A stretch of 64,000 nt of DNA from a virus. The notes beneath the pieces are model-generated. The model saw nothing but the letters and a program-made list of their open reading frames with translations, made no database searches and was not told the DNA's origin. Where the stretch lies: IMG/VR virus record IMGVR_UViG_3300006928_000001, positions 1-64,000 of that record, one strand, 5' to 3'. Position numbers and translations under genes: made by a program. Below, in pieces: positions 21,744-48,703 of the stretch (positions within the stretch are counted from its first letter, which is position 1; every line of letters starts with the position of its first letter).

Positions 21744-22126
21744 GACAACTTCCAGTCACAATCCCTGTTTGAACAGTACCTATTGCCCGATGTAGAATAG
21801 ACTTCATGACCACACATGGGGCATGGATACTTTACAACGTAAGGTTCCTGTTGATACATCTGTACGAACGCATCATTTGCCTCAAACAACGTTGGTAGCT
21901 TCATCCCGTTGATACTAGCGCCAGGAACCATCACAGGCAGGATCATCTTATCGAACCATGCCAGTAGCTTTTGACGCTGAACTTCAGTCATCTCTTCGTC
22001 AGGACCTATATCATCACAGATGAGTGTGTGAAACCGCTGCCCGATCAGAGGGTTGTGTTGCATCGGCTTGATGACTACTACGTTATCAGGGTCGTTAGTT
22101 ATGACTAGTAGTTTGTTCTTTTTCAT
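21740..22126 (-). CDS. Small protein with C-terminal zinc ribbon
   Basis: A 128-residue protein ending in a clear zinc ribbon (CPMCG, then 12 residues on CSNRDC). The upstream part holds VVVIKPMQHNPLIG and a helical region. It overlaps the start region of the 21336 gene and the end of the Topo VI-like gene (ATGA), so it is translationally coupled to the topoisomerase. It could be a DNA- or protein-binding adaptor for that enzyme, which is inference from linkage. Confidence 0.7.
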   Translation of the reverse strand: MKKNKLLVITNDPDNVVVIKPMQHNPLIGQRFHTLICDDIGPDEEMTEVQRQKLLAWFDKMILPVMVPGASINGMKLPTLFEANDAFVQMYQQEPYVVKYPCPMCGHEVYSTSGNRYCSNRDCDWKLS

Positions 22127-24747
22127 GACTGCTCCTGAAACAGGAGAGGAACACGCCGCTTCATCACGCGAGTCACTGCTTCATTGATGTCTTCACCACC
22201 TTGCGCTGCCCTAGTCACCAGGTATTCCCAATGCGTTTCTGGCCTACCTTCCAAAACTTTGTCCAAGTCATACGCCGGGACGCCAATCTCTCGCATGACT
22301 TCCATGACCATGTCTTCCCCGGCCAGCTTCATGAACACCGCACCCATCTCAGTGGTAACCTTGTTACGACGGGCCGTCTTCATCTTCTCTTCGACGATAG
22401 CATCTGGTGGGCGAACCTTCTTGCATCCATGCTTCTCCAAGTTCTTTTCGACCCATTGTTCGAATTCCTTAGGAGGCATCGCGTTAAGTTCAACTCGTCG
22501 ACCCTTCGGCTTGTCTACCCAATACGGGAATTCACCGGTACGAAACATCTTTGGCATGAACGCATCAAACGCTTCTGGTTCCATCAGCGGACGTTTTGTT
22601 CCGTCTGGGTCTACGATTTTATGTTTGGTCATCGTCTTATTGATCATAGACCAGTTATGCTTTTTAATCTCGAATGGTTCGTCTTGTAGTCCCATCTCGA
22701 CAGCATCCCGAATTGTTAGACCGACGTCGATGACTTCGATCTTAACGTTCTCGCCAAACCGGGGAAGGTTAGTGGCTAGGTCGTACCCAATCATGTATCC
22801 AGCTGGGTCTGCGTCGTGCAGGCAGATGATCTTGACCATGTCACCAAGAAGCTTCTTGTATTTCTGCAATACGTCACGAATGGCTTCAACCGCAAATCCC
22901 TTAGAGCCGACGATGATAGCGTCCCATCGCTTATCGATCTTCATCTGCCTCATCTGAGCGGCGAGGTTTTCCTTCTCAACGAAGATGATAGTATGACCCA
23001 GCCACTTCTTCGGTTTGAAGTCACGAACGTCTGCAGTGCCTAGACGAACGGTCTTGCCGTTGTGAGGTTCGTACATGGTCCCTCGAGGGTCCTTTAGACA
23101 GATAGCTTTACCAGCAACATTTCGTTCGTACTCATCGATATAAGCACAGAATGTCCCGTAGTGAAGCTCACGATCGTCTAGGACATACCACTCTTTACGC
23201 ATCGAGTAATAGAACTGACGAATCAACGGCTCGTACTTACCATTGTCGGTTACCTCCTTGAGTACCCTAGGGATCAAGCGAAATAGTTCAAGACGAATAG
23301 TATCTCGCTTCTGCTTTTTAGCCTTCTTTCGCTTAGTTTCCCCGTGGCGTTGACGGCGTACCTCAAGAGTTGCTTTTTCAAGACACTCAGATAGCGGAGC
23401 AGACAACCAGGACGTATCAAACTGTTGTTTCCCGTACCCGCTATATCCAGGACTAGGGCAGGTTACGTGGACAACAAACGAACAGGGTGTCTTACCATGG
23501 TCAATTTGGTATGCTCTAGCGATAGAGCCTAGGTCACCATTGATAGACAACCATTGTCCACGAACCTTATCACGATACTTGAATCCGTCTTTACCCTTGA
23601 AAGACGGAGACCCATACAAGAACGTTCTGTTCATAGCTAGAATCGGTTCTGGAGCCCGCCGTTTACCTTCTGGCATTTGCATCAGACAGACTTCTACAAG
23701 AAACGGAATCTCTGCCTCGTTGCTAGAAAATGTACCTGAAACCGAGTGGTACCAGTGTCCAGCATCCGCATCAGTACCCATTTCTTTCGTAAGAAATTGA
23801 GCGAGTCTTTCATCGCCCACGGCGTTAAACTGTGGGAACGTGGCCTTCTTAGACGTGACCTTCGACATATACTCGTAGACGCTTTTAACCTGCTTGACAG
23901 CGTTTTCAATTGGTACGTTATCAATTCCTTGGTTCCGCAGGTCTGATGGAGAAATACGAGAAAACGCGAATTCACGCATCCAGTCATACAGCTTATAGTT
24001 AGGCCTAGCTCTAACGTCAGCTGCCATACGCTCTGTAAACTCATCTAACGTAAACCAAGTAGACGCTCCAGCCTTATGGGCTTCATTCATGCATGGCTTC
24101 GTCTTGGTAGTGTTCATTGGTGGGGTTGACCAGATAGTCGACTTGTACATCACCATGAACTTCGCGTGTGGATTCATCCACGCAAATTGACGTACGGCGT
24201 CAAACACATCGTCTAGTGTTGATCCACCTCGCTTCCAAGGTAGTTCCGGTAGTGGGACTCGAATAGCTGATGGCTTTGGGGCACCAAATGGAATACGTAT
24301 CACATCGACTTTCTGCTTCACCTTGTCAAGATTGACCTGAAGTCGAAGCGAATGTCCACTAGGTCGGTACAACTCGATGTACCCAACATCCAACCATGCC
24401 GAGACGATACCCATAATCGTCATGATGGCGTTGCCCTGAGCACCTCGGGTGGGTAGCTTGTGATGTCTGTTACTACCACCAAATCTGTCAAAGTCCAGGA
24501 TGTTATCAAGAACCGCGTCTGAAATGCCAGGCCCGTTCTCCGCAACTTCGATATATGAATCAGTCAGTGTAACGCGAATCATTGGCGTTACACCGAACTC
24601 TTCAATTGCTGCTACGGCGTTATCCAGTAGTTCTTTTACTACGTACACTGGCCAACGGCCTTGGTTAACTCCGCATAGCTTAACCAACTCACTAGGCTGA
24701 AAATTAGACCAGGTACGAGAGTCGGAATGGAATACGCGTCCACTCAT
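22123..24747 (-). CDS. Single-chain topoisomerase VI-like protein (GHKL B part fused to Spo11-like A part)
   Basis: An 874-residue protein combining both halves of a type IIB topoisomerase. Residues 36-120 hold the GHKL ATPase: N-box KELLDNAVAAIEE (Glu39, Asn43), ENGPGI (70-75, with Glu in place of the usual Asp of DxGxG) and RGAQGNAI (101-108). Residues about 200-460 read like the transducer. A basic linker (about 470-482, KRKKAKKQKR) leads to a Spo11/TopoVIA-like part: RQFYYSM with the candidate catalytic tyrosine (513 or 514), then a Toprim fold with VEKEN (Glu591) and HDADPAG (Asp645, Asp647). It probably relaxes or decatenates DNA during phage replication. It resembles the Topo VIII class of bacterial mobile elements but is longer. 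Confidence 0.85.
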   Translation of the reverse strand: MSGRVFHSDSRTWSNFQPSELVKLCGVNQGRWPVYVVKELLDNAVAAIEEFGVTPMIRVTLTDSYIEVAENGPGISDAVLDNILDFDRFGGSNRHHKLPTRGAQGNAIMTIMGIVSAWLDVGYIELYRPSGHSLRLQVNLDKVKQKVDVIRIPFGAPKPSAIRVPLPELPWKRGGSTLDDVFDAVRQFAWMNPHAKFMVMYKSTIWSTPPMNTTKTKPCMNEAHKAGASTWFTLDEFTERMAADVRARPNYKLYDWMREFAFSRISPSDLRNQGIDNVPIENAVKQVKSVYEYMSKVTSKKATFPQFNAVGDERLAQFLTKEMGTDADAGHWYHSVSGTFSSNEAEIPFLVEVCLMQMPEGKRRAPEPILAMNRTFLYGSPSFKGKDGFKYRDKVRGQWLSINGDLGSIARAYQIDHGKTPCSFVVHVTCPSPGYSGYGKQQFDTSWLSAPLSECLEKATLEVRRQRHGETKRKKAKKQKRDTIRLELFRLIPRVLKEVTDNGKYEPLIRQFYYSMRKEWYVLDDRELHYGTFCAYIDEYERNVAGKAICLKDPRGTMYEPHNGKTVRLGTADVRDFKPKKWLGHTIIFVEKENLAAQMRQMKIDKRWDAIIVGSKGFAVEAIRDVLQKYKKLLGDMVKIICLHDADPAGYMIGYDLATNLPRFGENVKIEVIDVGLTIRDAVEMGLQDEPFEIKKHNWSMINKTMTKHKIVDPDGTKRPLMEPEAFDAFMPKMFRTGEFPYWVDKPKGRRVELNAMPPKEFEQWVEKNLEKHGCKKVRPPDAIVEEKMKTARRNKVTTEMGAVFMKLAGEDMVMEVMREIGVPAYDLDKVLEGRPETHWEYLVTRAAQGGEDINEAVTRVMKRRVPLLFQEQS

Positions 24748-25745: not shown

Positions 25746-26390
25746 TTACCTGTTGACAACGCTCATAGCGATTTCCATAATGTAGTCTTCGCGAGTCGGT
25801 AGTGGAGGCACTTTTCCATACATACAGCTAATCCATTGATCAAGACAAGCTTTTACCATACGTTCAAACGCCCGATGATACGCGAGACTCTGTTGTCGTG
25901 CAGGGTCATCTCCAACATTAATGAACGCGTCCATACTACAGAACAAAACCAAGTCATACCGTAGCATATGCTTTGCGGCGTTAAGCTCGAACTCGTCACT
26001 CAGTGAGTATGGAGCGTGCATAGCAGTATAGCAATAATCGTCGATAGTAGTTCTATCGGTGATGAACCTGTCGTGGTTATTTTCCCACTCGATTTTTTCA
26101 GTTTGTAGACGCCGCTGAAACATAGTTCGACACGTGTTACCCTTAGAGCCATAGTTGTTGTAGTCAGACACCGCCGCCTGTGCCGCTAGGTCAGGAGTTA
26201 GTCCTTCTAAAACTGCGGCGTTATACGCAGGTTGGTTAGCAAGATCAACGTCGTACGGATTAGTAAAACCGAGAACTTCGGCGGTGCTACGTGACCCCAC
26301 CGGGTTAATTGGCACATGAAATCGCTCAGACAACATCCGAGCAATCGTGGTCTTTCCAGTTCCGCTAGGTCCACACAGTCCGATTCTCAT
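25746..26390 (-). CDS. P-loop nucleotide kinase / AAA_28-type NTPase
   Basis: A 214-residue protein with N-terminal Walker A GPSGTGKTT (residues 7-15), an internal ITDRTTIDDY segment like the DRx motif of nucleoside and deoxynucleoside-monophosphate kinases, and LVLFCSMD as the parallel core strand. It is coupled to the dCMP deaminase upstream by an ATGA overlap, which suggests a deoxynucleotide kinase. NadR-like or T4 Pnk-like NTPases share the fold, so the substrate is open. A role as the modified-dCMP kinase is possible given the hydroxymethylase-like gene nearby. Confidence 0.7.
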   Translation of the reverse strand: MRIGLCGPSGTGKTTIARMLSERFHVPINPVGSRSTAEVLGFTNPYDVDLANQPAYNAAVLEGLTPDLAAQAAVSDYNNYGSKGNTCRTMFQRRLQTEKIEWENNHDRFITDRTTIDDYCYTAMHAPYSLSDEFELNAAKHMLRYDLVLFCSMDAFINVGDDPARQQSLAYHRAFERMVKACLDQWISCMYGKVPPLPTREDYIMEIAMSVVNR

Positions 26391-26959
26391 TTCGGTTCTC
26401 CTCTGTACTTGTTCGGATAGTAGTGTTGACCCATGACCTTGAGAGCAGACGTGATCTCTTCTTCGGTCACGAGTTTCAAGTCCTTGGCTTCTTCATCGGA
26501 CATAGGAGTCAAAAGCTGTTCGCGAGCGTTGGTATACTTATCAATACGTATTTTCGCTTCAGCCGCGATCTTAGTACTCACAGAGTCTTCATCTTCGTGA
26601 TAATCACCCATGAAAATGACGTGCTTAATACCAGCCGAAGCAATCAGCTTCAGACAGGTAGGGCATGGATGCGTCGTCACAAAGATTGTGCAGCCATCTG
26701 TACTCTGTCCACCTAGTGCAGCCTGAGCAATAGCGTTTGACTCAGCGTGTACAGTACGGACGCAGTGTCCGTCGTGCATCAGATGGCCAACGTCGTCACA
26801 GTGCGGTGCTCCAGGTAGAGAGCCGTTGTATCCAGTGGCCACGATGTGACGACGCGAATTGATGATCACACACCCAACTTGACGACGGTTACACGTGGCT
26901 CTAGTCGCTACCATTTGAGCGATAGTCATAAAGTAGTCATGCCATGCTGGTCTACTCAT
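26387..26959 (-). CDS. Deoxycytidylate (dCMP) deaminase
   Basis: A 190-residue zinc deaminase converting dCMP to dUMP, the ThyX substrate. It shows the zinc and catalytic motifs HAESNAI (His71, Glu73) and PCPTC (Cys99, Cys102), plus the N-terminal substrate loop GYNGSLPGAPHC typical of phage dCMP deaminases. Cys23 and Cys54 may form the second structural zinc site seen in T4 Cd. It overlaps neighbours on both sides by four bases, forming an operon with the kinase. Confidence 0.92.
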   Translation of the reverse strand: MSRPAWHDYFMTIAQMVATRATCNRRQVGCVIINSRRHIVATGYNGSLPGAPHCDDVGHLMHDGHCVRTVHAESNAIAQAALGGQSTDGCTIFVTTHPCPTCLKLIASAGIKHVIFMGDYHEDEDSVSTKIAAEAKIRIDKYTNAREQLLTPMSDEEAKDLKLVTEEEITSALKVMGQHYYPNKYRGEPK

Positions 26960-28181: not shown

Positions 28182-30608
28182 TTAAGCGGCGATATCGACG
28201 GCCTTAACGTCGCTAACGCCATCCCAAGACTTGGGCCCGCGCTCAGACGAACTGGCAAGCGGAACCTTAAGTCCAAAGAACGCAGTCATACACGACCGAA
28301 TACACCAATCAGTATGTGGTGTGTCAAGCTCTTCCTTAATCTCGTTCATCAATTCATCATGGATACAAGTGAGCACCCGTGCGTCAGTAGGGATGCGGCG
28401 ACGAATGATTGGATGAATCTCAGTGGCGTTGAATGCCTTACTCGCAAACATTTGACACGTGCGAACAAATCCAACCTTAAAGGCAGAAGCAGCCCAGCCC
28501 TGGATGAGACGGTTGAGACCAACGTACGCCTTACTGATAGGCAGATAGTACCTTCTACCGAATGGGTCAAAGACAAATCCACGCTGTCGAAGTGCCTTTT
28601 TGATGTTATCCTGAACCTGCTTGATTTCAGGTAGGCGACCGTGGTATTCACGCATGTACTGGTAACTTTGTGCCTTGGTCCAACCCTGGCCTCTAGCCAG
28701 CTTCTTTTGACCCATGCCGTATAGAATACCGAAGTTAATACCCTTGGCAGACTTGCGGTCCATACCAATTTCGTCAGCGACTCCTTGGTGAGCATCAAAC
28801 GGATTTTCTTCCATGGATAGATGACGTCGCCAATCAACATCGTACTTCGACTTGTCTGGCAATTCACCTGTTTCCATGTAGTCTCTAATGTACTTCAATT
28901 CGTCTGAGACTTGGTCATCCTGCATCGGAGTTCCGTACCCGTCACAGAACAGAGTTGCTCCTGTGTAGTGGGCAAATCCACGTAGCTCAACCTGACTGAG
29001 GTCCAGTAGCCTCATCATATGACCGGGCCTAGAGATGAACAGTGAGCGTACTGAAAAGTCTACAACTGGAGACCCGGGTTCAAGCTTCAATACCTTGGCT
29101 TCATCACCCTCTTTACACTTCGACATTACCATAACGTTCTTAGTGTACTCGTATTCACGAGGTGACAAGAACGCTTCGAGGATTCTAAATAGCAGATCAG
29201 CATTGACCAGCATCTTAAACCGCTTCGGTACCTGCTGCGCATTATAGTCAGCAGAACTCATACGTCCAGAAACAGTCCCAACTGTTCTTAGCCGATGAAA
29301 CATCAAATCTACCCAGTCGTCAACTACTGGGTAGTTAAACCATGGGTCAGGGCAGGCTTTAGCACCGAATGTCTCGGCGCGCTCATTAAACCACGCCAAA
29401 GCAGTGTTGCACTTTCGATAGACCTGAAGCATGAACATGAGGTCTTCATGTTCTGGATGTTGTTCGCCATAATGTTGAAGAGCATCAACATCAAGTGACA
29501 TGTAATCGATGATCGACTTATCACCGTATCCAGCCATAATCTTGACTTGGTCACGCTCTCTCATTTTCTTGAATGCATCAGTGGTATGCATCATGGACGG
29601 TTTAAAACCGAAGTCTTTGTTACGGAAGAGAATACCACGAAGCTGCTGGTTACTGCCAGGGTTCAACGTCGGCATCTTAAGGTAAGACCTTACCCAACGT
29701 GTAGCGACAGCTTGGAGAGTCGTAGCTGCTACCGTCTGACGTTCTGCCAAGTTGCGGTCATACCTAGTACCACGCATACCGGCAATGGTAGCTTGGATAG
29801 CTGACTCGATTTCTAGTTCGTATAGGTCAAGGCGGTATCGACGGTCAGGACCCCTGTACCACCACCATCGTGTGGGCGCTTGATAAATCCACTTGTACCA
29901 CTTGAGGAAAATCAATAGCGTGTCTGCAGCATCGTCCTGCGCGTAAAGACCAGCCAATGGAACTGGCGCGCGCCAAATGTCTGCGCCTGGCTTGAACTTA
30001 TGGTCTTTCAGCCAACGATCCATATCATTCTTGGTATCCAAATCACGACCAAGAACATCTTTCTGGAGGGGCTTAAGACCAATGAGCTCATTCCAACCAA
30101 CGCCCTTGTTTAGAACACGAGCCGCGATTTGAATGTCGTGCAGCTGACCTTCCAATGGCCAAACTATATTCTCGGCTAGCATGAAACCAAGCTCCATGCT
30201 AAGATTGTGTACTACAACCAATTTGTCTTTTGGTCTTTCTTTCATCCACTCGGAGAAGGATTGAATGACCTCCTTAGACGACGGCTGTATACCTCCAGCA
30301 AAGCGTTGATCATGCCGAATGCCAATGTATGCAGATTTCACTTTGCCGAGATCTTCATCTAGCCAAGCGATAGCGATCCCAGCTATTTTTGCGCCAAACT
30401 CGGGCCTAAGGGCTGAGGGGTATGCCTTGTTGACCTTCTTACCGATCTTCTTTGGTGCTAAGTCGATAGTACGACCATTTGGTTTGGTCTCAAAGTCGAA
30501 CCCAACGAACCGCGCCTTCATGGCTTCGGCAAGAATCAGGTCCCAATGCTCTATCGTCCAACATGTGGTGTAAAGGTCGATAGTGCGGTCAATAGACGGT
30601 TGAATCAT
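28182..30608 (-). CDS. polA: DNA polymerase I (family A) with 3'-5' exonuclease domain
   Basis: An 808-residue replicative polymerase. The DEDD exonuclease starts with FVGFDFETKP (Asp38, Glu40). Later exonuclease motifs are VVHNLSMELGF and YAQDDAADTLL. The polymerase domain has motif A LLDLSQVELRG, motif B RKSAKGINFGILYGMG (finger helix with Lys, Phe and Tyr) and motif C IHDEL (His750, Asp751, Glu752). There is no 5' nuclease domain, which is supplied by the gene at 3573. It overlaps the TS-family gene (ATGA). Family A polymerase points to a bacterial rather than archaeal host. Confidence 0.95.
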   Translation of the reverse strand: MIQPSIDRTIDLYTTCWTIEHWDLILAEAMKARFVGFDFETKPNGRTIDLAPKKIGKKVNKAYPSALRPEFGAKIAGIAIAWLDEDLGKVKSAYIGIRHDQRFAGGIQPSSKEVIQSFSEWMKERPKDKLVVVHNLSMELGFMLAENIVWPLEGQLHDIQIAARVLNKGVGWNELIGLKPLQKDVLGRDLDTKNDMDRWLKDHKFKPGADIWRAPVPLAGLYAQDDAADTLLIFLKWYKWIYQAPTRWWWYRGPDRRYRLDLYELEIESAIQATIAGMRGTRYDRNLAERQTVAATTLQAVATRWVRSYLKMPTLNPGSNQQLRGILFRNKDFGFKPSMMHTTDAFKKMRERDQVKIMAGYGDKSIIDYMSLDVDALQHYGEQHPEHEDLMFMLQVYRKCNTALAWFNERAETFGAKACPDPWFNYPVVDDWVDLMFHRLRTVGTVSGRMSSADYNAQQVPKRFKMLVNADLLFRILEAFLSPREYEYTKNVMVMSKCKEGDEAKVLKLEPGSPVVDFSVRSLFISRPGHMMRLLDLSQVELRGFAHYTGATLFCDGYGTPMQDDQVSDELKYIRDYMETGELPDKSKYDVDWRRHLSMEENPFDAHQGVADEIGMDRKSAKGINFGILYGMGQKKLARGQGWTKAQSYQYMREYHGRLPEIKQVQDNIKKALRQRGFVFDPFGRRYYLPISKAYVGLNRLIQGWAASAFKVGFVRTCQMFASKAFNATEIHPIIRRRIPTDARVLTCIHDELMNEIKEELDTPHTDWCIRSCMTAFFGLKVPLASSSERGPKSWDGVSDVKAVDIAA

Positions 30609-31567
30609 CGAAGATTAGCCTTCATCAGTCTGTCGTATTCTGGCCACAAATGTCTATCTCGGTTGATAGCGCCAATGAAAGGCTTTAGCCCATCATTTCC
30701 GTACGGGCAGTCACCAGTAAGAATCATCTGCCATACGTTCTTAAGCCTTCTCGTAGTATCAGCATGAAAGATGCTTTTAAAGCTCGGCAGTTCAGGTACT
30801 AGAACCTCAGGAATGTTAATCCTGCGACTGTAAATCGCATCAGCGTCGTCGAAGTTAGTACCATACAGATGGAGATTACTCAACACATGATTATACACGC
30901 CAGGCTCTAGTTCAAGCATAGACGCAACAACCCGTTGTACCGTTGTAAACGACAGTACGTCATACGGCATGCCGAGCCAAACATCGTGACTTCGCATGAA
31001 CACAGTCAGATTCAACTTGCCGTTACGAATAGTAAAGTGCCAAGCAACCGTACACGGAATGTCCTTGGATCGCCAGGAGTTTCCGTCCCATTCTGGCTGT
31101 TGAGGATCGTTGCTGGAAACAACACCAGCTGACTTCAGTGTTGGATAATCATCCTGACCTTCGTGCGGATGAGGATACCCGTTAAACGGACCAACTTGAG
31201 GTCTCCAAGTAGTTACTATAGCTTGACGGCTATCAGGATCGCGTTGAAGGGTCGCGACAACGTGATTGATCTGGCCCATAAGACGTGGCCCATAAGCTCC
31301 CCACAGAACTTTACCGTCATCACTAAACTGTGCCATGACCTTGTTGTAGTCACTGATGACTTTGACGTCATCGGACCCAGCAAGAATCCAAGCAGCTTCA
31401 GCAAAGCCAAAACGATAGTTCACCCGTCGGATTGGATCTAGGATGAAAGGCTTATGAACGTCAGTTAGCTGAAGAGTGACAGGCCACGGAACCTCATACA
31501 CTAGGTTACCACGTGGCGCTGACTCAACTCCATGCAACAAACATAATGAAAGGGCGTACCTCCACAT
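30605..31567 (-). CDS. Thymidylate synthase-family enzyme, probable dCMP hydroxymethylase
   Basis: A TS-family pyrimidine C5-methyltransferase or hydroxymethylase, 320 residues from ATG 31567. Family motifs include WILAGSDD, YNKVMAQFSDDGK, GAYGPRL, the nucleophile in DIPCTVAWH (Cys172), FMRSHDVWLGMPYDV and HLYG. Asp203 in MPYDV stands where true TS enzymes have Asn (LPFN, E. coli Asn177). That change marks T4-type dCMP hydroxymethylase and related dCMP-modifying enzymes. A separate ThyX-like protein covers dTMP. The frame is open to 31981, but that extension overlaps another gene in a different frame, has no well-placed SD and is not TS-like. Product could be 5-hydroxymethyl- or 5-methyl-dCMP. 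Confidence 0.82.
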   Translation of the reverse strand: MWRYALSLCLLHGVESAPRGNLVYEVPWPVTLQLTDVHKPFILDPIRRVNYRFGFAEAAWILAGSDDVKVISDYNKVMAQFSDDGKVLWGAYGPRLMGQINHVVATLQRDPDSRQAIVTTWRPQVGPFNGYPHPHEGQDDYPTLKSAGVVSSNDPQQPEWDGNSWRSKDIPCTVAWHFTIRNGKLNLTVFMRSHDVWLGMPYDVLSFTTVQRVVASMLELEPGVYNHVLSNLHLYGTNFDDADAIYSRRINIPEVLVPELPSFKSIFHADTTRRLKNVWQMILTGDCPYGNDGLKPFIGAINRDRHLWPEYDRLMKANLR

Positions 31568-31608: not shown

Positions 31609-31962
31609 TTACTGTTTCTGAGACTCGCTGGAAGCTGCCTTTGAGGAGGTCTTCGACCGAGACTTTGAAAGCTGCTTCGAGGCTACGGTCTTGGATTCGA
31701 CCTTGGGTTCGGCCGAGGGTGCGATGGGCGGTGGCGCATGTTGGTGCCGACCGTACACTCTCCGGAAAATTCTCAAACTCTTCGAGAGTCCCGGATCGGC
31801 CTGAATCAAGGAGAGCCCTTCTCGGTGAAACTTGATGGTCTTCGTCTTTGGCGTCAACTTCAGTGTATCGTCCGTCAGGCGGTTCCACGCCTCCAGAAGG
31901 TTGTGAAATGTCTTCTGATTGCGCTCCGGCATCCGGAAGATGATGTCCGCCTGGAATTCCAT
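31609..31962 (-). CDS. Small protein with Lys/Ser-rich tail
   Basis: A 117-residue protein. The ATG at 31962 has a near-perfect AAAGGAG seven bases upstream, which is why I accept this frame over the longer overlapping one. The first 75 residues are probably folded. The last 40 are disordered and basic (PPPIAPSAEPK, then KSRSKTSSKAASSESQK), suggesting nucleic-acid or protein tethering. It ends 41 bases before the TS-family ATG. No family recognised. Confidence 0.7.
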   Translation of the reverse strand: MEFQADIIFRMPERNQKTFHNLLEAWNRLTDDTLKLTPKTKTIKFHREGLSLIQADPGLSKSLRIFRRVYGRHQHAPPPIAPSAEPKVESKTVASKQLSKSRSKTSSKAASSESQKQ

Positions 31963-32016: not shown

Positions 32017-32577
32017 TCAGTTCGTCTGGTCTCGAAATGAAGAGAGGATTGTCTTAGCCATCCAAGATGGATATCCCCTCATGTCTTGAGTGTACCAGTA
32101 TGGTGAGATAGCCCCTAACCGACTTAGGTCACCACAGCAACGCATGAAACCACTTGCGATGGGACCTGCATGGGACATACCTGCTCCAGACTTCTTGTCT
32201 GGAATACCACCATCACGTTCAACTTGACGCTTGAGAATACTCAATAGCGGCAACCAACAGTGCACCAACTTTCCACCGTTGGCGACAATACGTTCATCGA
32301 TTTCACGCGCTTCGTTCATGGAGAGGTTAGACCCTCCTCGGAGAAGATTGGCGTATACGATCTCGCCAACGTGAAACCGATCGACTACTACTAGCGTACC
32401 AGTTTCTGAAATCTCGATGAGATCGTCAAGCATGATGTCGTAGTGCAGATATGGCGGAATATCAGTTGGTGGTGGGCCGTTGTTGATTCGTACAACTGGA
32501 CCGTCAAATTCTGCTTCAATAGCGTCAGCAAGGGTGGACTTACCGACGCCATCAGCTCCTTCCAGGAAGATCATCAC
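32017..32577 (-). CDS. Thymidylate kinase-like P-loop kinase
   Basis: A 186-residue protein with the dTMP-kinase opening FLEGADGVGKSTLADAIE (P-loop about residues 5-13), a DRF motif (VVVDRFHVGEIVYA) like the DRY/DR(F/Y) of tmk, and a lid-like segment KRQVERDGGIPDKKSG. It is shorter than cellular Tmk (about 210). It probably phosphorylates dTMP or a modified dNMP. A hairpin overlaps its stop (TGAACC/GGTTCA, 32002-32017). Confidence 0.78.
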   Translation of the reverse strand: MMIFLEGADGVGKSTLADAIEAEFDGPVVRINNGPPPTDIPPYLHYDIMLDDLIEISETGTLVVVDRFHVGEIVYANLLRGGSNLSMNEAREIDERIVANGGKLVHCWLPLLSILKRQVERDGGIPDKKSGAGMSHAGPIASGFMRCCGDLSRLGAISPYWYTQDMRGYPSWMAKTILSSFRDQTN

Positions 32578-32753: not shown

Positions 32754-32972
32754 TTACTCCTGCGCTTGTTCAACAGCAGTCTCAAGATAAGCCTTGGCTG
32801 CGATGAACTCTTCACTACTGGTATGGGCGTCTAGGTACGTTGCGAGATTATCGTACAATTCTGGCTGTTCGTCACTATTAGTAATATGGTACTGCGTAAT
32901 CATAGCCATCAACTTCGGTTTATTTTCCGTGTCAGCGAAGTGATCTACAATCGACTGCATCAACGGAGTCAT
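32754..32972 (-). CDS. Small hypothetical acidic helical protein
   Basis: A 72-residue, acidic, all-helical protein (MQSIVDHFADTE, EFIAAKAYLETAVEQAQE). It overlaps the stop of the methyltransferase gene by four bases (ATGA) and lies directly before the two-helix membrane protein. No recognised domain. Confidence 0.65.
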   Translation of the reverse strand: MTPLMQSIVDHFADTENKPKLMAMITQYHITNSDEQPELYDNLATYLDAHTSSEEFIAAKAYLETAVEQAQE

Positions 32973-33907
32973 CCTGCAATCTCCTTGGCGTCAGCTGGAA
33001 CACGAACCTTCCAGGCAATGTTGCGAGCCGCCTCGGGATGCATGGCACTGAACACACACGACAAAGTGTGTGGACTATGGTAGTTAGCCAGACGATTCCA
33101 GATTTCAATCTCCTTATCATCCATAGCACGAAAAAGATTACGAAGATTACTGAATGTCCCGTACTCTTCCATCACCTCACATCCGCGCTTTTCAAAAGCA
33201 CGACGTAGTTCAGACCGCTGCCATTCATAGATGTGGTTCTTGGCGATGAATCCGCCATTGACTGGCGTAGACAACAGAATCATCCCATCTGCACCATCCT
33301 CGCGCTCAGGCTTGCGGCGCGCATAACGAACCATTCCATCTAGGAATCGCTCGCCGTCAGGCTTGTCCATGTGCTCAAGTACTTCAAAGGAAATGACGAC
33401 GTCAAACGTCCAATCAGGAACTTTCTCCGGCTCGTCAACAGCATTCGTCTTACTGAGAATCTTGGTCTCAATGCCGGAAACGCGTGGACGGTACTTGATT
33501 TGATTCAGGTCTACGGCGCAATACTGCGAAGGCTTGTAGTGCTTAACGGCGCTATGGTCGCAGGTAAGCGTACGGAACAGAGGAATTTCTTTGCCACATC
33601 CCATTTCCATGATTCGAACGCCGGCTCCAAAGTGTTCCTTAACGACCTTCATCGGAAAACCATACCTGATTGCGTGAGCTAGGTAGTCACGTCCAATACG
33701 GTATGCCTTCTCAGGGGAAAGATGAGACTTATCGAACCGATTATCATCGGATCGTTCAGTTGGTGCAGCCCGGCTATGCGTCTTCTGTTCAAAGTACGGC
33801 TCAGCTTCCTTTACCGGCAGCCAATTATGCTCACCATCATCACCAGGCTCTGCCTCTCGGCGAAACTGACCGGTTCGAAGACAAACAAATCCTACGACGT
33901 CACTCAT
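32969..33907 (-). CDS. Class I SAM-dependent methyltransferase
   Basis: A 312-residue protein with a Rossmann methyltransferase core: motif I RIMEMGCGKE, an acidic motif II region (YCAVDLNQ), motif IV FDVVISFEVLEHM and a following LLSTPVNGG strand, the pattern of the Methyltransf_11/23 group. These usually modify small molecules, lipids, glycans or proteins rather than DNA, and no NPPY motif is present. The N-terminal 60 residues contain a charged segment without known fold. It lies between the portal gene and nucleotide-metabolism genes. Substrate unknown. Confidence 0.8.
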   Translation of the reverse strand: MSDVVGFVCLRTGQFRREAEPGDDGEHNWLPVKEAEPYFEQKTHSRAAPTERSDDNRFDKSHLSPEKAYRIGRDYLAHAIRYGFPMKVVKEHFGAGVRIMEMGCGKEIPLFRTLTCDHSAVKHYKPSQYCAVDLNQIKYRPRVSGIETKILSKTNAVDEPEKVPDWTFDVVISFEVLEHMDKPDGERFLDGMVRYARRKPEREDGADGMILLSTPVNGGFIAKNHIYEWQRSELRRAFEKRGCEVMEEYGTFSNLRNLFRAMDDKEIEIWNRLANYHSPHTLSCVFSAMHPEAARNIAWKVRVPADAKEIAG

Positions 33908-37046: not shown

Positions 37047-38006
37047 TCACGGCTTCGTACCATCTCGCTTGCACAAGCGATAAAACGGGCAACGCTCACA
37101 TACAGACGGGTCGTCAGTTGCTTCAAACTTATCACGGATAGGGATGTTTTGGTCTAGATCACCATCTTTCAAGCGATCGGCCAGATCTTCGGCAAAGAGA
37201 TCGATGATCATCCCAGTTTTTTCGATGTCTTCATCGGTGATGCGAAAATGATCTACTTGCACGTTTTCTTGACTGATGTATGGAATTACAGAATGGACGG
37301 ATGACCATCCAAGACCGTTAGCCCACATTCCGTACAGTTTAGCTTGTAGTTTGTCTTTCTTACGCTTGCGGCCAGTCTTCCAATCCACTACTATGACAGA
37401 GTTATCACTACCACGAATAACCAAGTCCATAGCTACCCAGACTCGTAACCCTGACCTTCGAAAAGACATCAAATCTTCGACCATAACTATTTGCCTGTAG
37501 TTATTGATCGCGTGTCGCAATATGTTCCTAGTCTCATTACCAGTATCGGCTTTGTACCAGGAGTTATCCTTCGCTAAAGAGTGTAATTTTTGCTGTATCC
37601 GCAGCCAGACATTCTCCCAATTTACCGGTTCGCCGTCAATAATTTCTGATAGCTGTAGCCTATGCTTCGGATTGCCAGAGTGTTGATTTAGAGCTTGGTC
37701 TTGCCCACGTGCGAACATACTTCGTGCGTGGGCAAGCATCACCGGTTCTATGTCACTAAACTTACGGCCTTGCCTAGCTTGATCGAGGATATGCTGTGCA
37801 GCCTTATGGATGATTTTTCCTGACCATGATGGTATCGTCTCAATAAACTTAGCCTCGTAGTTCTCCTCAGCTGTTCTGTCAGATGGAGGCTTATTACCAC
37901 GCCACCACCCACCCCATGAAGCATAAGTCCACCGATAGTATTTCAGTGGACACTCTGCAATCATCGTTGCTTTAGAGAATGAAAACGATGCTTCGTTCTT
38001 AAACAC
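37047..38006 (-). CDS. RecB/Cas4-like PD-(D/E)xK nuclease with C-terminal cysteine cluster
   Basis: A 319-residue PDDEXK_1-family protein. It opens with SFSFSKATMIAECPLKYYR (the SxSxxxxxxxCPxxY motif of RecB/AddB/Cas4 nucleases, first Cys of a Fe-S site), carries GKIIHKAAQHILDQ (His site), WVAMDLVIRG and VVDWKTGRKR (catalytic Asp and Lys), and ends with CERCPFYRLC, the remaining cysteines of the Fe-S cluster. This is the Cas4/AddB-type exonuclease layout, suited to recombination or end processing. There are no CRISPR repeats or cas genes in the window. It ends next to the AAA+ gene. Confidence 0.85.
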   Translation of the reverse strand: MFKNEASFSFSKATMIAECPLKYYRWTYASWGGWWRGNKPPSDRTAEENYEAKFIETIPSWSGKIIHKAAQHILDQARQGRKFSDIEPVMLAHARSMFARGQDQALNQHSGNPKHRLQLSEIIDGEPVNWENVWLRIQQKLHSLAKDNSWYKADTGNETRNILRHAINNYRQIVMVEDLMSFRRSGLRVWVAMDLVIRGSDNSVIVVDWKTGRKRKKDKLQAKLYGMWANGLGWSSVHSVIPYISQENVQVDHFRITDEDIEKTGMIIDLFAEDLADRLKDGDLDQNIPIRDKFEATDDPSVCERCPFYRLCKRDGTKP

Positions 38007-39295
38007 TATGCAGCCTCAGACTCGCTAAGTGGCATCTTGATATCGGGGTGCCGCTTAGCCCACCAGGCTTGACGCTCCTTTAGAGACATCTTAAGCGAGA
38101 GACGTTCTCCACGACTACGCCAGTCAATCGCCTGCATCCAAGAGTTACGGTGACTTGGCTCACCAGTTAAAGCCGGAACGGTTCGTACTCCTCGTCTAAT
38201 ACCATCTGCCAAGACTCTACCCAAAAATGCGGCATTATGCGTACACAGCCCGCGACCAATTTCGGCATACGCCTTAGACTTTGGTGAGAACTCGTAGTCA
38301 AGCGGAAACCCCATGATGGTTGCACACTCACGCGGCGTGAGATACCTGTCTTCTACTGGGTGGATGACGGTATGGCCGCCTAGAATATTCGGTGATGGTC
38401 GATCAAGGCGACCACGGGTGTGCGTGAATCCCGGCCTAGAAGAACCATTCCATTTTGCGCCACGAGGCCGATAATGCTTATGCATCAATTCATCTGCCAC
38501 TTCACGTAGATGTGATCCTGGAGGGCAGTACGGCATAATGGACCTGAACGCACCAAAGTAGGTATTCTTGTTGTTAGGAAGATCACCACCGTTTTTTACG
38601 AGCTCTAGTGCGTCTCCAAGAGTCTTGGAACCAAGATTGTCTGCAGATTCGTTATTGTAAACGCCACGCCAATCTAGATCGTATTTACTAGCTACGAAAT
38701 GGAACCTTCGTCGATCTTGGTATCCACCATGAATAGCGGATGTCGTTAGAAACGCATAACACCTGTATCCAAGGGATCTTGCTCTAAAGGCCATCGCGTC
38801 TAGAAAGCTACGTTCCTTGCTAAAGATTGCTGGAACTAGCTCCCAAGTCCAGATGTCTGGCTGAAGACGGAATGCTGCCTCGTACGCTACGTACCGTGTG
38901 TAGCACATTCTGTCATCACTAGATCCTTCGTGCTTCCCAGGCCCAGCATAGGCTACACACGGCGGATTCGCATAGAAAATACGAGGTACATTACCCGCAC
39001 TCTTTAGCTCATCAATGAATGACAACCAATCTTCTCCGTTAGTGGACCTGTTAAGATACCCGTCTTTGAGAGGGATATTAGCAACCGGCCAACGTTGGCG
39101 TGACACGTTGCTACCTAAGTCTAGATCAGGTAGCTCTAGATGACCAGCAACGTTAATTCCAGCCTGCTCCATACCAAGACTGAAAGCTCCAGCAAAAACG
39201 CATGCACCCAGAGCAGTGACTTCGTTACGCCCAGCTTCTAGTTCAGCATGAATTGCGTCCATTTGTTCGCGGTTAGACAATGGAAGATACGACAT
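38006..39295 (-). CDS. C5-cytosine DNA methyltransferase-like protein
   Basis: A 429-residue protein with DNMT-type motifs: I (GACVFAGAFSLGMEQAG), IV NPPCVAY with the catalytic Cys113, a VI-like WELVP (ENV in classic enzymes, so the Asn is changed), VIII YQDRRRFHFV (QxRxR), IX RYLTPRECATIMGFP and X IGRGLCTHNAAFLG. The target recognition region is short. It methylates cytosine C5 in DNA, probably protecting against restriction, unless the changed VI motif or the modified cytosines predicted here alter its activity. No cognate endonuclease is seen. It overlaps the RecB/Cas4-like gene by one base. Confidence 0.82.
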   Translation of the reverse strand: MSYLPLSNREQMDAIHAELEAGRNEVTALGACVFAGAFSLGMEQAGINVAGHLELPDLDLGSNVSRQRWPVANIPLKDGYLNRSTNGEDWLSFIDELKSAGNVPRIFYANPPCVAYAGPGKHEGSSDDRMCYTRYVAYEAAFRLQPDIWTWELVPAIFSKERSFLDAMAFRARSLGYRCYAFLTTSAIHGGYQDRRRFHFVASKYDLDWRGVYNNESADNLGSKTLGDALELVKNGGDLPNNKNTYFGAFRSIMPYCPPGSHLREVADELMHKHYRPRGAKWNGSSRPGFTHTRGRLDRPSPNILGGHTVIHPVEDRYLTPRECATIMGFPLDYEFSPKSKAYAEIGRGLCTHNAAFLGRVLADGIRRGVRTVPALTGEPSHRNSWMQAIDWRSRGERLSLKMSLKERQAWWAKRHPDIKMPLSESEAA

Positions 39296-40083
39296 TAGTA
39301 GCCATCCTTCTGACGCTTGAAGTTAATGTCGTTCTTATGCATGAACGCGTAGTATAGATGGTCAAGTTTAACGCCTGGAATAGCCTGTGCGCAGGCACAG
39401 ATTTCAGGCATCAGCGTAAAGTAAATGAACCCAGATCCGGGTGGAAACTTGTGAGGATTTACAGCACCATTACTAACAAGAATCTGTTGGCGAATAGCCG
39501 CTGCAGTATCAACAAGTAGCTGACGTAGATAGTTAATCCTGGCCGCTACCTTTTTCTCCCAATCCTCGCCATGTGCTCCGTCAGCATGACTGAACATACT
39601 ATAGATTGCAAGGTTCGGACCCTGTCCATTACGTTCAGCCAGAGCCCAAGCAAAGTCAAGACCAAACGCAGGTACCTGCACTTGCATGGCGCTAGCTGTA
39701 ACTTTTGCCACAAGCTCCCGCTCAGGTTGTCCGCCCATGAAAAGATATGCGTTGACGACGAAGTGCATCACGTCGACAAGCTCCATGAGCAACTCATCTT
39801 TGTCGGCTTGAACAGGGTTAGACTTATGGTGCTTCCATCCACCTTCCACCATGTCCCAAGCTTCACTAGCCTCTTGGACACCCATATCAAGATGGTGGAT
39901 AACCCTACGTGGAAGGCAGAACGTCTTCTTGCCGAAGTCTTTCAGCCTGGAATCGTATGACCCAACCAGAGTCTGAAAATCCATCTGTCGCTTAATGATT
40001 TTTGCCTGGTGATCAATCGACCAGTCAAGTTCATCAAATTCGGTGTCGATGGAGAATTCATCGGCACAGTTCTGCACTTTCAT
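39295..40083 (-). CDS. All-alpha NTP pyrophosphatase (dimeric dUTPase / dCTPase-like)
   Basis: A 262-residue helical protein. VQEASEAWDMVEGGWKHHK and DELLMELVDVMHFVVNAYLF give the ExxE...ExxxD metal-binding pattern of the MazG/dimeric dUTPase superfamily, which also contains T4 gp56 dCTPase/dUTPase. It would remove dUTP, and if gp56-like also dCTP, giving dCMP for modification. It overlaps the C5-methyltransferase-like gene by one base, which supports nucleotide or DNA modification context. Which substrate it uses cannot be read from sequence. Confidence 0.75.
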   Translation of the reverse strand: MKVQNCADEFSIDTEFDELDWSIDHQAKIIKRQMDFQTLVGSYDSRLKDFGKKTFCLPRRVIHHLDMGVQEASEAWDMVEGGWKHHKSNPVQADKDELLMELVDVMHFVVNAYLFMGGQPERELVAKVTASAMQVQVPAFGLDFAWALAERNGQGPNLAIYSMFSHADGAHGEDWEKKVAARINYLRQLLVDTAAAIRQQILVSNGAVNPHKFPPGSGFIYFTLMPEICACAQAIPGVKLDHLYYAFMHKNDINFKRQKDGY

Positions 40084-41675: not shown

Positions 41676-44528
41676 CTAGAACCCCATGTCCATCTTCGTA
41701 GGCTTTGGAGGGTCTTTCTCCATTTCACGAAGAAGATTCATGAATTCTGACGTCCAAACCATAGCCGTGTTACGGCTATTTTCTTGATCGAAGAAAGCTG
41801 CTCCGTTACGTGCCATCTGTGTGATGAACATTCGGGCTTCATTCCCGTCAAGTCCTAGAACCATCCCGATGCTATTGGGATTGACTCGGCGTAGATCAAG
41901 TAGAGCTCTACACGTATTACCAACGTCACCAGGGTCTACATCGACGATAGCAGCAATTACTGCTTCTGTATCCAACTTCTGGCGTTTCTTGTACTCACTG
42001 AACTCTTTATAGCCCAGTTCACCGTCGTACGCACAACGCATAACCCGTTCAGCAAATTCTACGTGGCACCGACGGACGTAGATGATGTTAGGGTCATCGT
42101 CTTTTACCGAGAATGTCCGTGCAGCACTTGCTACAGCTAGGCGCGCTATTTTTAGGTCCTGTTCTGCGGGTTCTACCAATGGCATAGAGTGATCGTACTC
42201 TTTCGCCATAGCCGCACCACGTTTAGCCGCAAGGTTTTCAGCTCCATCTTCCCATTCGACGTGGGATTCAGTTCTTGACCAGGCAAACCTGACTAGAGCC
42301 CTTCGTAGTTCTACGAGCGCAGGGTAGGGTTGTTCGCCAAGCTCTTGGTCAGCGGCTTCTTTATCTAGACCCTGCTTAACGGCGCATGCAAAATCAAAAC
42401 GCGCTACGTCTTCTGGCGTTCCGATAAGATCCATGATCGCTTCAACTGGTGTTCCGTATGACGATAGCATTCTGCCCAAACCACGTGGGTTACCAGCCAT
42501 AATGATTCTAGTTCTAGCTGGTGTTGAAGCATTACGAATCTTAGTAATTTCTGCGATCCCACTAGACCGCATCCCAGACATCTTAGAGATATCGTCTACG
42601 CTTAGTGAACTAGCTTCGTCAATCGTGACGAGACCACGGTCATTAGTAGGAACAAGTCCCCAAGTAACGACCCATGACTTATCACCACTCCCTACCTGTT
42701 GAAGACCACCAACGATACCGGCGTACGTAGTATTAGCGGGGTCCATGACGTACTTTCCTAAACCAAAGTATTGAGTCATGGTGTTCATTGTTTCTGACTT
42801 ACCTGTACGTGTATCACCGATTACGCAAAGTGACAACCATCCACGAGCTGGAACTTTACCACGATACTTGAATCGGATCACGCTATGGTACGTTAGATCG
42901 ACTAGTCTGAGCAGATTATTACGTCCAAACACCCCTGTGACGTGTCGAGACAGGCTTTTTTCTTCGGCTATCATTACAGCGTCAATAGAATCTGCTGTCC
43001 ATTGACGTGGATTGAACGTTTCCTTGAGAGACTGGGTCATCTCTTCGTCAAGGGTAAATGAATCGATATCATCTTCAGCAGGTATTGCGTCTGAGCTAAC
43101 CAATGTCCATTCGTTCGTCAAAACGTCAGGTTCAATTTTTCCGTAAAAATGGTACAACTGATTAGATCTGATTGGTGGTGTTCTACCATCCGCCGGACAG
43201 ACGTACATGGCAGCTCGCATCGTACTATCACCACCATGGCGCTCAGACATTGGTGGGATCAACTTAAGGTGCTGAATTTGCCAGTGACCGTCCATCTTGA
43301 ACTTGACCATTGGACAACGTCCAGGGATTCCTGCCTTACGCCTAAACTCATTCTCTTGTTGCCTGGAGTTCATGACGGCCAAGTTCATGAGCATCTCTGA
43401 CTCAGCATCAATCTCGACGCGAAGTGATCCAGCTGTTCTCATGACGGGGCAAGCAGCACACTTCTTTTCGTCCCAGTTCATATGGCACTTGACTTCAGCC
43501 AGTTGTGGAACTAGAACAGGAATCATGTTTGTACCGAGTACGTGGGCTTTAACCGAGATGCTTTCCTTTGGAACGCCACCACCAAGCTTTACTGGTAGCG
43601 GGGGTGGTGCTTCTTCTTGGTCTTTTTTGCCTTCCCACTGGTCATTTGCTAGCTTCTTGAACCAAGAAACGCTACGCTTATCCTTAAGAATAGCGTCGCT
43701 GAAGTCTTTGAAGTTAGGGTCAGACAACGAGAAGTCTAGATGAAGAGCTTCAACATCATTGGTTACCAGTCGTGACCTAACGGTACGAGCCCCTCTTCTT
43801 CCAGGAGTATCGATGTCGTAGCATAGCACTACTTTCTTACCACGGACTATGTTAAGAACATCTGCTGTCCAGGTTCCAGCACCACCTGTGATCAGCAAGG
43901 TCGGAAGACCTTGCTGGGCCGCTAGAATTCCGTCTGGCTCACCTTCGAACATCCATACTTCATCCGCCTTTTCGATAGATTCGAAGCCAAACGGAATCCA
44001 TACAGCTTTACGGTTAAGCCCTTCATCATTGGCGTAATGAAACGACTTAACCGTTGATCTTTTGAACGGGTCGTACATACGCGCGTTGATAAGTTTACCA
44101 GACTGATCGCGAATCGGTATCCAAAGATGACTACCGTCCCAGCCGATCAAAAGCTTTTCAATCGTAGCCTTAGTCCATCCCCGCTTACGTTCTAGGTCTG
44201 TTACGACCTGAGGAGAGTCGACTAGGATACGATGGTATCGTGCAATCAAATCCTCAGACAGAGGGGGCAAGTCGCGTAGAGTTACAACTGTCCCAGCGGA
44301 CTGAGGAGACTTGACAAACACGTCAAGTGGCGGACCATCATCTCTCGATGATGCTCTGCACCGATGACACCGGTAGTATCCAGTGTCGATGTTTACACGC
44401 AGAGATGGCCGCTCATCTGGTCCACAAGCTGGACACTTAGCCGTCGCCCAACCATTGGACGAGGCTTTAGTTTGGTCCAGCCCAAGAGCCGTCAGAGCGG
44501 CGTTCAGCGCAGCTGCTGAGAGCTTCAC
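41676..44528 (-). CDS. Toprim primase fused to MCM-like AAA+ helicase
   Basis: A 950-residue replication protein. An N-terminal zinc ribbon (Cys32, Cys35, Cys54, Cys57) and a Toprim domain (FEGEPDG with Glu195; CYDIDTPG with Asp238/Asp240) form a DnaG/T7 gp4-type primase. A middle cysteine region (CHMNWDEKKCAAC, about 348-360) reads like an MCM N-terminal zinc/OB part. The C-terminal AAA+ motor has Walker A GDTRTGKS (571-578), Walker B GLVTIDEASSL (632-642), AGNPRG sensor and an RFD arginine finger (710-712), the MCM pattern. It thus primes and unwinds in one chain, in place of a DnaB helicase. Start GTG. No DnaB or DnaG elsewhere in the window. Confidence 0.85.
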   Translation of the reverse strand: MKLSAAALNAALTALGLDQTKASSNGWATAKCPACGPDERPSLRVNIDTGYYRCHRCRASSRDDGPPLDVFVKSPQSAGTVVTLRDLPPLSEDLIARYHRILVDSPQVVTDLERKRGWTKATIEKLLIGWDGSHLWIPIRDQSGKLINARMYDPFKRSTVKSFHYANDEGLNRKAVWIPFGFESIEKADEVWMFEGEPDGILAAQQGLPTLLITGGAGTWTADVLNIVRGKKVVLCYDIDTPGRRGARTVRSRLVTNDVEALHLDFSLSDPNFKDFSDAILKDKRSVSWFKKLANDQWEGKKDQEEAPPPLPVKLGGGVPKESISVKAHVLGTNMIPVLVPQLAEVKCHMNWDEKKCAACPVMRTAGSLRVEIDAESEMLMNLAVMNSRQQENEFRRKAGIPGRCPMVKFKMDGHWQIQHLKLIPPMSERHGGDSTMRAAMYVCPADGRTPPIRSNQLYHFYGKIEPDVLTNEWTLVSSDAIPAEDDIDSFTLDEEMTQSLKETFNPRQWTADSIDAVMIAEEKSLSRHVTGVFGRNNLLRLVDLTYHSVIRFKYRGKVPARGWLSLCVIGDTRTGKSETMNTMTQYFGLGKYVMDPANTTYAGIVGGLQQVGSGDKSWVVTWGLVPTNDRGLVTIDEASSLSVDDISKMSGMRSSGIAEITKIRNASTPARTRIIMAGNPRGLGRMLSSYGTPVEAIMDLIGTPEDVARFDFACAVKQGLDKEAADQELGEQPYPALVELRRALVRFAWSRTESHVEWEDGAENLAAKRGAAMAKEYDHSMPLVEPAEQDLKIARLAVASAARTFSVKDDDPNIIYVRRCHVEFAERVMRCAYDGELGYKEFSEYKKRQKLDTEAVIAAIVDVDPGDVGNTCRALLDLRRVNPNSIGMVLGLDGNEARMFITQMARNGAAFFDQENSRNTAMVWTSEFMNLLREMEKDPPKPTKMDMGF

Positions 44529-48217: not shown

Positions 48218-48703
48218 TTAGCCCCACATCCACTCAGACGTAAAATCGTTTTGCGGACATTCGATTTCATCAATCTGCGGAAATGGTGACTGTCCGTGCT
48301 TCACACGTTGAACAGCGACTTCAAATGTATTTCGCCCAATTGGCTTAAACGTCAGGCCGCCACCAACTCTGGTTTCTGCAGCGCGTCGTTTGTCGCGACT
48401 AGTAGCCCATCCGGTCATCAACCCAATTTTCGTCTTTGGGGAGTGCTCACGAATAGCCTCTCCTAGACCAACACCAACAGGACCACCATTCAACCGTACG
48501 TCGATTATAACGATGTTAGGTTGCCACTGCTCTGCTGTGTCTAGGGCTTCTCTTTTTGAAGTTACGCCACGTACACTCGCACCCAATCCTCGCATATGAT
48601 TCATATACGATTTTAGTGCAATGACGTTATCTTCGACGATAAGAACTCTTAGCTCTTCATTTGGGTCTGGTGGGTCTGGCCAAATATTGGTTCCTGGCAT
48701 CAT
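48218..48703 (-). CDS. CheY-like response regulator receiver protein
   Basis: A 161-residue single receiver domain with the full set of conserved residues: acidic pair Glu24-Asp25 (LIVEDN), phospho-acceptor Asp68 (VIIDVRL), Thr97 (LMTGW) and Lys120 (FKP). A Pro-rich N-terminal tail and an acidic C-terminus flank it, with no output domain. It probably signals by protein interaction, either with a host histidine kinase or with the adjacent phage proteins. Receiver domains in phages are uncommon. The start overlaps the stop of the 48700 gene (ATGA). Confidence 0.9.
   Translation of the reverse strand: MMPGTNIWPDPPDPNEELRVLIVEDNVIALKSYMNHMRGLGASVRGVTSKREALDTAEQWQPNIVIIDVRLNGGPVGVGLGEAIREHSPKTKIGLMTGWATSRDKRRAAETRVGGGLTFKPIGRNTFEVAVQRVKHGQSPFPQIDEIECPQNDFTSEWMWG

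Follow-up and report, generated by a model that had tools for sequence, protein, structure and literature searches.

The stretch of DNA analysed here (the window) comprises 64,000 nucleotides, the first part (1-64000) of a record of 107,823 bases from an uncultured bacteriophage. On its minus strand, positions 30605-31567 hold an open reading frame of the thymidylate synthase (TS) family, which runs from a first ATG at 31567 to a stop at 30605 and encodes a product of 320 aa. The frame stays open as far as 31981; this extension overlaps an ORF read in another frame (31609-31962), which leaves the start codon uncertain. Membership of the product in the TS fold is established by matches to Pfam PF00303 (1e-22) and PHROG 5131 (1e-54). 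An earlier note on this DNA had recognized a TS-family enzyme with Asp at the position of E. coli Asn177 and an intact nucleophilic Cys, and both observations hold: the motif MPYD is present, its Asp (D203, codon GAC, 30961-30959) aligns with E. coli TS N177 and T4 D179, and the nucleophile is C172 (codon TGT, 31054-31052; E. coli C146, T4 C148). Next to the latter, T173 (codon ACG, 31049-31051) takes the place of E. coli H147 (T4 T149), while D169 (codon GAC, 31061-31063) takes that of E. coli L143 (T4 D145), a position that is Leu in ThyA and Asn in the Xp12 group (alignment and PMC6400193). The full set of catalytic Glu, phosphate/ribose-binding residues and nucleophilic Cys is present: window E57, Y92, R114, R192, S193, D195, H233 and Y235 correspond to E. 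coli E58, Y94, R126, R166, S167, D169, H207 and Y209, and all are intact.

A near relative of the window was not found by megablast among 50,697 phage records; by tblastn the window TS matched 2,208 phage records, each at less than 60% identity. When the window TS was used as a single-sequence query, IMG/VR gave zero matches; its relatives there were retrieved with an alignment query instead. The TS encoded by a 91,853-base IMG/VR contig (L104) is 50% identical to that of the window and keeps every active-site residue, and the run of genes around it is the same, which argues that Asp177 and the catalytic set are not there by chance.

Upstream of the TS gene lie (minus strand for all coordinates given) a P-loop dNMP-kinase-like gene (32017-32577; PHROG 761 thymidylate kinase, 1.6e-12), a SAM-dependent methyltransferase (32969-33907; PF13489, 4e-9), a PD-(D/E)XK nuclease, a C5-cytosine-methylase-like gene (38006-39295; PF00145, 4.7e-18) and an all-alpha NTP pyrophosphatase of the dUTPase_2/MazG-like type (39295-40083; PF08761, 3.7e-11; PHROG 173). 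Downstream are a family A DNA polymerase (28182-30608; PF00476, 3.6e-31) and a dCMP deaminase (26387-26959; PF00383, 2.3e-26), both conserved members of the cassette, and a second kinase-like P-loop protein (AAA_28; 25746-26390; PF13521, 3.4e-12). Of 80 related TS loci in IMG/VR, 70 have the deaminase, 67 the kinase-like gene, 62 the polymerase and 32 the methyltransferase beside TS, always on the TS strand. By eye, L104 has a nucleoside deoxyribosyltransferase-like ORF between methyltransferase and kinase (L104:11151-11570); the corresponding interval of the window holds two small ORFs unrelated to it.

Residue code, phylogeny and predicted structure

We aligned the window TS with E. coli ThyA, T4 gp42 (from AF158101), SPO1 gp29, the enzymes of PhiW-14, AG3 and other phages, and those of the Xp12 genus, represented by three genus-mates of Xp12 (MT664984), namely AXL1, Elanor and 83-24. 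At positions 143, 147 and 177 (E. coli numbering) the window TS has D/T/D, identical to T4 gp42; ThyA has L/H/N, the dUMP hydroxymethylases D/N/N, and the Xp12 group N/P/D. The same triplets were recovered in separate scans of environmental contigs (79/80 DTD, 79/80 DNN and 13/13 NPD), so that residues 147 and 177 co-vary between the DTD and DNN sets. The TS-seeded scan pattern required MRS(S/N/H)D; Met165 is thus preselected in that set, while D143, T147 and D177 lie outside the pattern.

The window enzyme therefore carries neither the signature of ThyA (Asn177, His147, Leu143) nor that of the SPO1 gp29-type dUMP hydroxymethylases (Asn177, Asn147), nor the W80, N143, P147, D177 pattern of the Xp12 group, in place of which it has M, D, T and D. 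In T4 gp42, cytosine is selected by Asp at 177, the mutant D179N loses activity and affinity for dCMP, and D145N is impaired (PMC6400193). MetaGPA associates modified cytosine in phage DNA with Asp177 and with an altered residue 147 (PMC8670742). Asp143 is found in the two biochemically known hydroxymethylases, T4 gp42 and SPO1 gp29, whereas ThyA and the Xp12 group lack it. The combination of D143, T147 and D177 thus predicts hydroxymethylation of cytosine rather than methylation.

In a maximum-likelihood tree of 41 proteins (IQ-TREE), the ThyA pair (100/100), the Xp12-genus trio (100/99) and the hydroxymethylases (100/99) form separate clades. The window TS falls in the last of these with T4 gp42 and SPO1 gp29, outside both ThyA and the Xp12-genus clade. 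Since T4 gp42 is only ~24% identical to the window TS and its branch is very long (5.5), its exact place within the clade is unsure. Moreover, the dUMP hydroxymethylases nest among the D177 (DTD) enzymes, so that the clade alone does not fix the base, which rests on D177 and T147: membership in the clade would say 'hydroxymethyl', and the residues would say 'cytosine'.

The best fold matches of the AlphaFold model of the window TS (pLDDT 75) are to MilA, a CMP/dCMP hydroxymethylase, ahead of any thymidylate synthase; MilA is also the best sequence match among solved structures, and shares the Asp at the base-selecting position. It differs at the sugar, with the ribose signature Lys133/Ala176 where deoxyribose enzymes have Arg/Ser (PMC5175136); at the equivalent positions (E. 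coli 126 and 167) the window TS has R114 and S193. The likeness to T4 gp42 extends to the catalytic set, the D143/T147/D177 triplet and the clade, while the low identity and position 80 (W in T4, M in the window) set the two apart.

Taken from sequence, the window enzyme is very probably a phage dCMP hydroxymethylase of a non-T4 kind (we put the probability at roughly 0.85). The dCMP-modifying role suggested in the earlier note is supported by D177, D143/T147, the tree and the conserved cassette shared with phage AXL3 described below. Of the 5-hydroxymethyl- and 5-methyl-dC that the note had left side by side, the former is clearly favoured, by the place of the protein in the hydroxymethylase clade and by N143/P147 in the Xp12 genus. 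More generally, a three-residue code (143/147/177) that sorts dTMP, hm-dUMP, Xp12-group and hm-dCMP enzymes would make the likely base modification readable from phage genomes.

The cassette in phage AXL3 and a proposed pathway

Very similar cassettes occur in Stenotrophomonas phage AXL3, which is the closest among named phages, in Pseudoxanthomonas phage PW916 and in two spring-water genomes. AXL3 gp28 is 43% identical to the window TS and has the same residues, but was annotated by its authors as a thymidylate synthase, with the modification left unknown. The methyltransferase, the kinase-like gene, dCMP deaminase, family A polymerase and ThyX are common to AXL3 and the window; by contrast, the AXL3 ThyX is single-domain and the C5-methylase-like gene was not seen in the stretch of AXL3 examined. 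The AXL3 pyrophosphatase has no detectable homology to that of the window, so that it is the function, not the gene, that the two have in common. Only 2 of 37 restriction enzymes cut AXL3 DNA, both at A/T-only sites, and all those tested with G/C in the site failed (PMC7504290). Given that resistance amounts to 82% of enzymes for the 5hmC DNA of T4gt and to 8% for 5hmdU DNA (PMC7653180), this phenotype, far above the latter value, fits modified cytosine and not modified uracil.

We infer a pathway in which Cys172 would attack C6 of dCMP while Asp203 recognizes the cytosine ring and donates a proton to it; a one-carbon unit would then pass from methylene-tetrahydrofolate to C5, and water, not hydride, would end the reaction, yielding 5-hydroxymethyl-dCMP. 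The adjoining kinase-like protein, a probable hydroxymethyl-dCMP kinase, would raise this product towards the triphosphate, while the NTP pyrophosphatase would probably clear dCTP and the deaminase would send dCMP to dUMP. The phage family A polymerase would put 5hmC into the genome, as a shield against host nucleases.

The earlier note had also argued that a ThyX-like protein frees the TS-family enzyme for a modification role. Such a protein exists 27 kb from TS (2152-3573, minus strand; PF02511, 4e-37) and is a possible source of dTMP, but its activity is less sure than had been assumed, because it has a tandem-domain form and scores 67.7 against a cut-off of 87.9 for NCBIfam thyX. The argument is also weaker than claimed: of 40 records that were searched, nearly all of which carry this type of TS, a ThyX is present in only 8, and ThyX is hence not a requirement. 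By eye, the window protein has the STRY motif in its first domain and RHR in its second, a layout suggestive of a single active site to which both halves contribute.

With regard to tailoring of the base, T4 employs glucosyltransferases, while the MetaGPA contigs with TS and carbamoyltransferase (5-carbamoyloxymethyl-dC), which resemble the window in their Asp177 TS, dCMP deaminase, NTP-pyrophosphohydrolase and origin from modified-cytosine phages, employ the carbamoyltransferase. Neither a glycosyltransferase 2 nor a carbamoyltransferase was found in searches of the 107.8-kb record; a search for TET/JBP detected no control.

Two methyltransferase-fold partner families

The product of 32969-33907 is modelled as a class I Rossmann fold (pLDDT 86), with Hen1 and UbiG as nearest profiles. 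We scanned IMG/VR with this protein and with the C5-methylase-like protein as queries, in scans free of TS selection. With the methyltransferase as the only query, a TS was present within 10 kb in 62 of 80 loci (61 DTD, 1 DHD, 0 N177), and 8 of the 18 loci lacking one had less than 4 kb of sequence downstream. With the C5-like family a TS was present within 10 kb in 64 of 78 loci (61 DTD, 2 DND, 1 with position 177 unaligned). D143 is found in every TS near either family, and D177 in all those with a readable position 177, whereas neither family adjoins any of the 80 N177 enzymes or of the 13 Xp12-group enzymes. The difference between D177 and N177 loci has a Fisher p of about 1e-10 for the methyltransferase and 2e-3 for the C5-like family, in a calculation that ignores kinship. 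Grouped at 50% identity, the TSs linked to the methyltransferase fall into 12 clusters and those linked to the C5-like family into 9; the loci are therefore not copies of one virus, even if the counts are not fully independent. Within the 50,697 phage records, members of the methyltransferase family turned up in five records from four genomes, and the TS is of the DTD type in each. The methyltransferase can thus be regarded as a dedicated partner of the dCMP-hydroxymethylase type of TS, and the C5-like protein as a linked family.

In the C5-like family the Cys of the PPC motif, the Glu of motif VI and both Arg of the motif VIII RxR are invariant in 90/90 members, and since these catalytic residues are kept the family probably still attacks cytosine C6, in a phage where CH2OH should by then occupy C5. 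The ENV form of motif VI is absent, with ELV in the window and Ser for Asn in 85/90 members. As an ordinary methylase, such a protein would be odd in a genome without a free C5, which counts against the hydroxymethylase reading. In vitro, ordinary C5 methylases swap the hydroxyl of 5hmC for a thiol (PMC7176277), so that a tailoring reaction on 5hmC is plausible in chemical terms. A second C5-methylase-like paralogue of 600 aa, with a C-terminal extension, is encoded at L020:14711-16513 (plus strand; record bases 78711-80513).

Judged by this linkage, the two families are candidates for tailoring 5-hydroxymethylcytosine: both proteins may act on 5hmC, and the target of the SAM methyltransferase could be its hydroxyl or another position. 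Because both genes almost only adjoin this kind of enzyme in environmental viruses, a further-modified, undescribed cytosine in the viral DNA is possible. Tentatively, and at somewhat less than even odds, 5hmC would be only an intermediate in this phage and in many uncultured relatives, the methyltransferase and/or the C5-like enzyme converting it to an undescribed hypermodified cytosine, such as a methyl ether or a C5-CH2-X base (Cys attack at C6, with the hydroxyl replaced). No description of either partner was found in the literature searched, and the main text of the MetaGPA study names no methyltransferase (PMC8670742); as far as searched, the combination of this cassette with two dedicated partners of methyltransferase fold is an undescribed variant. 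Hypermodification of DNA is one of the chief means by which phages counter defence, and it is also a source of enzymes; two families that accompany only the hm-dCMP type offer leads into new chemistry of cytosine. The named isolates AXL3 and PW916 already carry one of the two.

The serious competitor of tailoring is that 5-hydroxymethyl-dCMP is made as proposed, while both methyltransferase-like proteins act on host or viral RNA, on host DNA or on leftover cytosine. UbiG and Hen1, as nearest profiles of the methyltransferase, indicate no specific substrate, and capping-type enzymes are among its fold matches, with one homologue annotated as 'capping protein'; yet a role on RNA or host DNA predicts no restriction to hydroxymethylcytosine-type enzymes, to which both families are tied, with none beside hydroxymethyluracil-type or Xp12-type enzymes. 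We put this alternative, too, at somewhat less than even odds.

Alternative enzyme activities and other genes in the record

It is very improbable that the enzyme is instead an Xp12-like dCMP methylase, which would give phage DNA with 5-methylcytosine. Considered by itself D177 would fit, as the Asn-to-Asp change there is cited to make ThyA a dCMP methylase (in PMC8670742), and AXL1, genus-mate of the 5mC phage Xp12, also has D177. However, positions 80, 143 and 147 are W, N and P in AXL1, Elanor and 83-24, and N143/P147 is also seen in 13/13 of their environmental relatives, against M80/D143/T147 in the window; the 100/99 separation of the Xp12-genus clade and the lack of either partner family near Xp12-group enzymes point the same way. 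A DHFR gene adjoins TS in both AXL1 and Elanor. No DHFR was detected here, but this counts for little, since the same search could barely pick up the DHFR of Elanor.

That the enzyme works on dUMP, as a thymidylate synthase or dUMP hydroxymethylase tolerating Asp177, is likewise very improbable: the cassette deaminase would supply dUMP and databases call relatives 'thymidylate synthase', but the loss of activity and dCMP affinity in T4 D179N, the co-variation of T147 and D177, the restriction resistance of AXL3 and the position outside ThyA all argue against it.

Some other genes of the record deserve mention. An 874-aa protein (22123-24747, minus strand) joins a GHKL ATPase to Spo11/TopoVI-A Toprim domains, in what resembles a topoisomerase VI made of one chain and encoded by a phage, and a stretch of it is 76% identical in L104. 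A Toprim domain is fused to an MCM helicase domain in a 950-aa protein (41676-44528, minus strand), with a 60% identical homologue in L104. By eye, a ribonucleotide-reductase (NrdJ-like) fragment at L022:3233-3823 (minus strand) runs off the record end, so that part of the genome may be missing from the record, or the record may be circularly permuted. Finally, positions 48218-48703 (minus strand) encode a stand-alone response-regulator receiver domain (PF00072, 1.3e-12), which is unusual for a phage.
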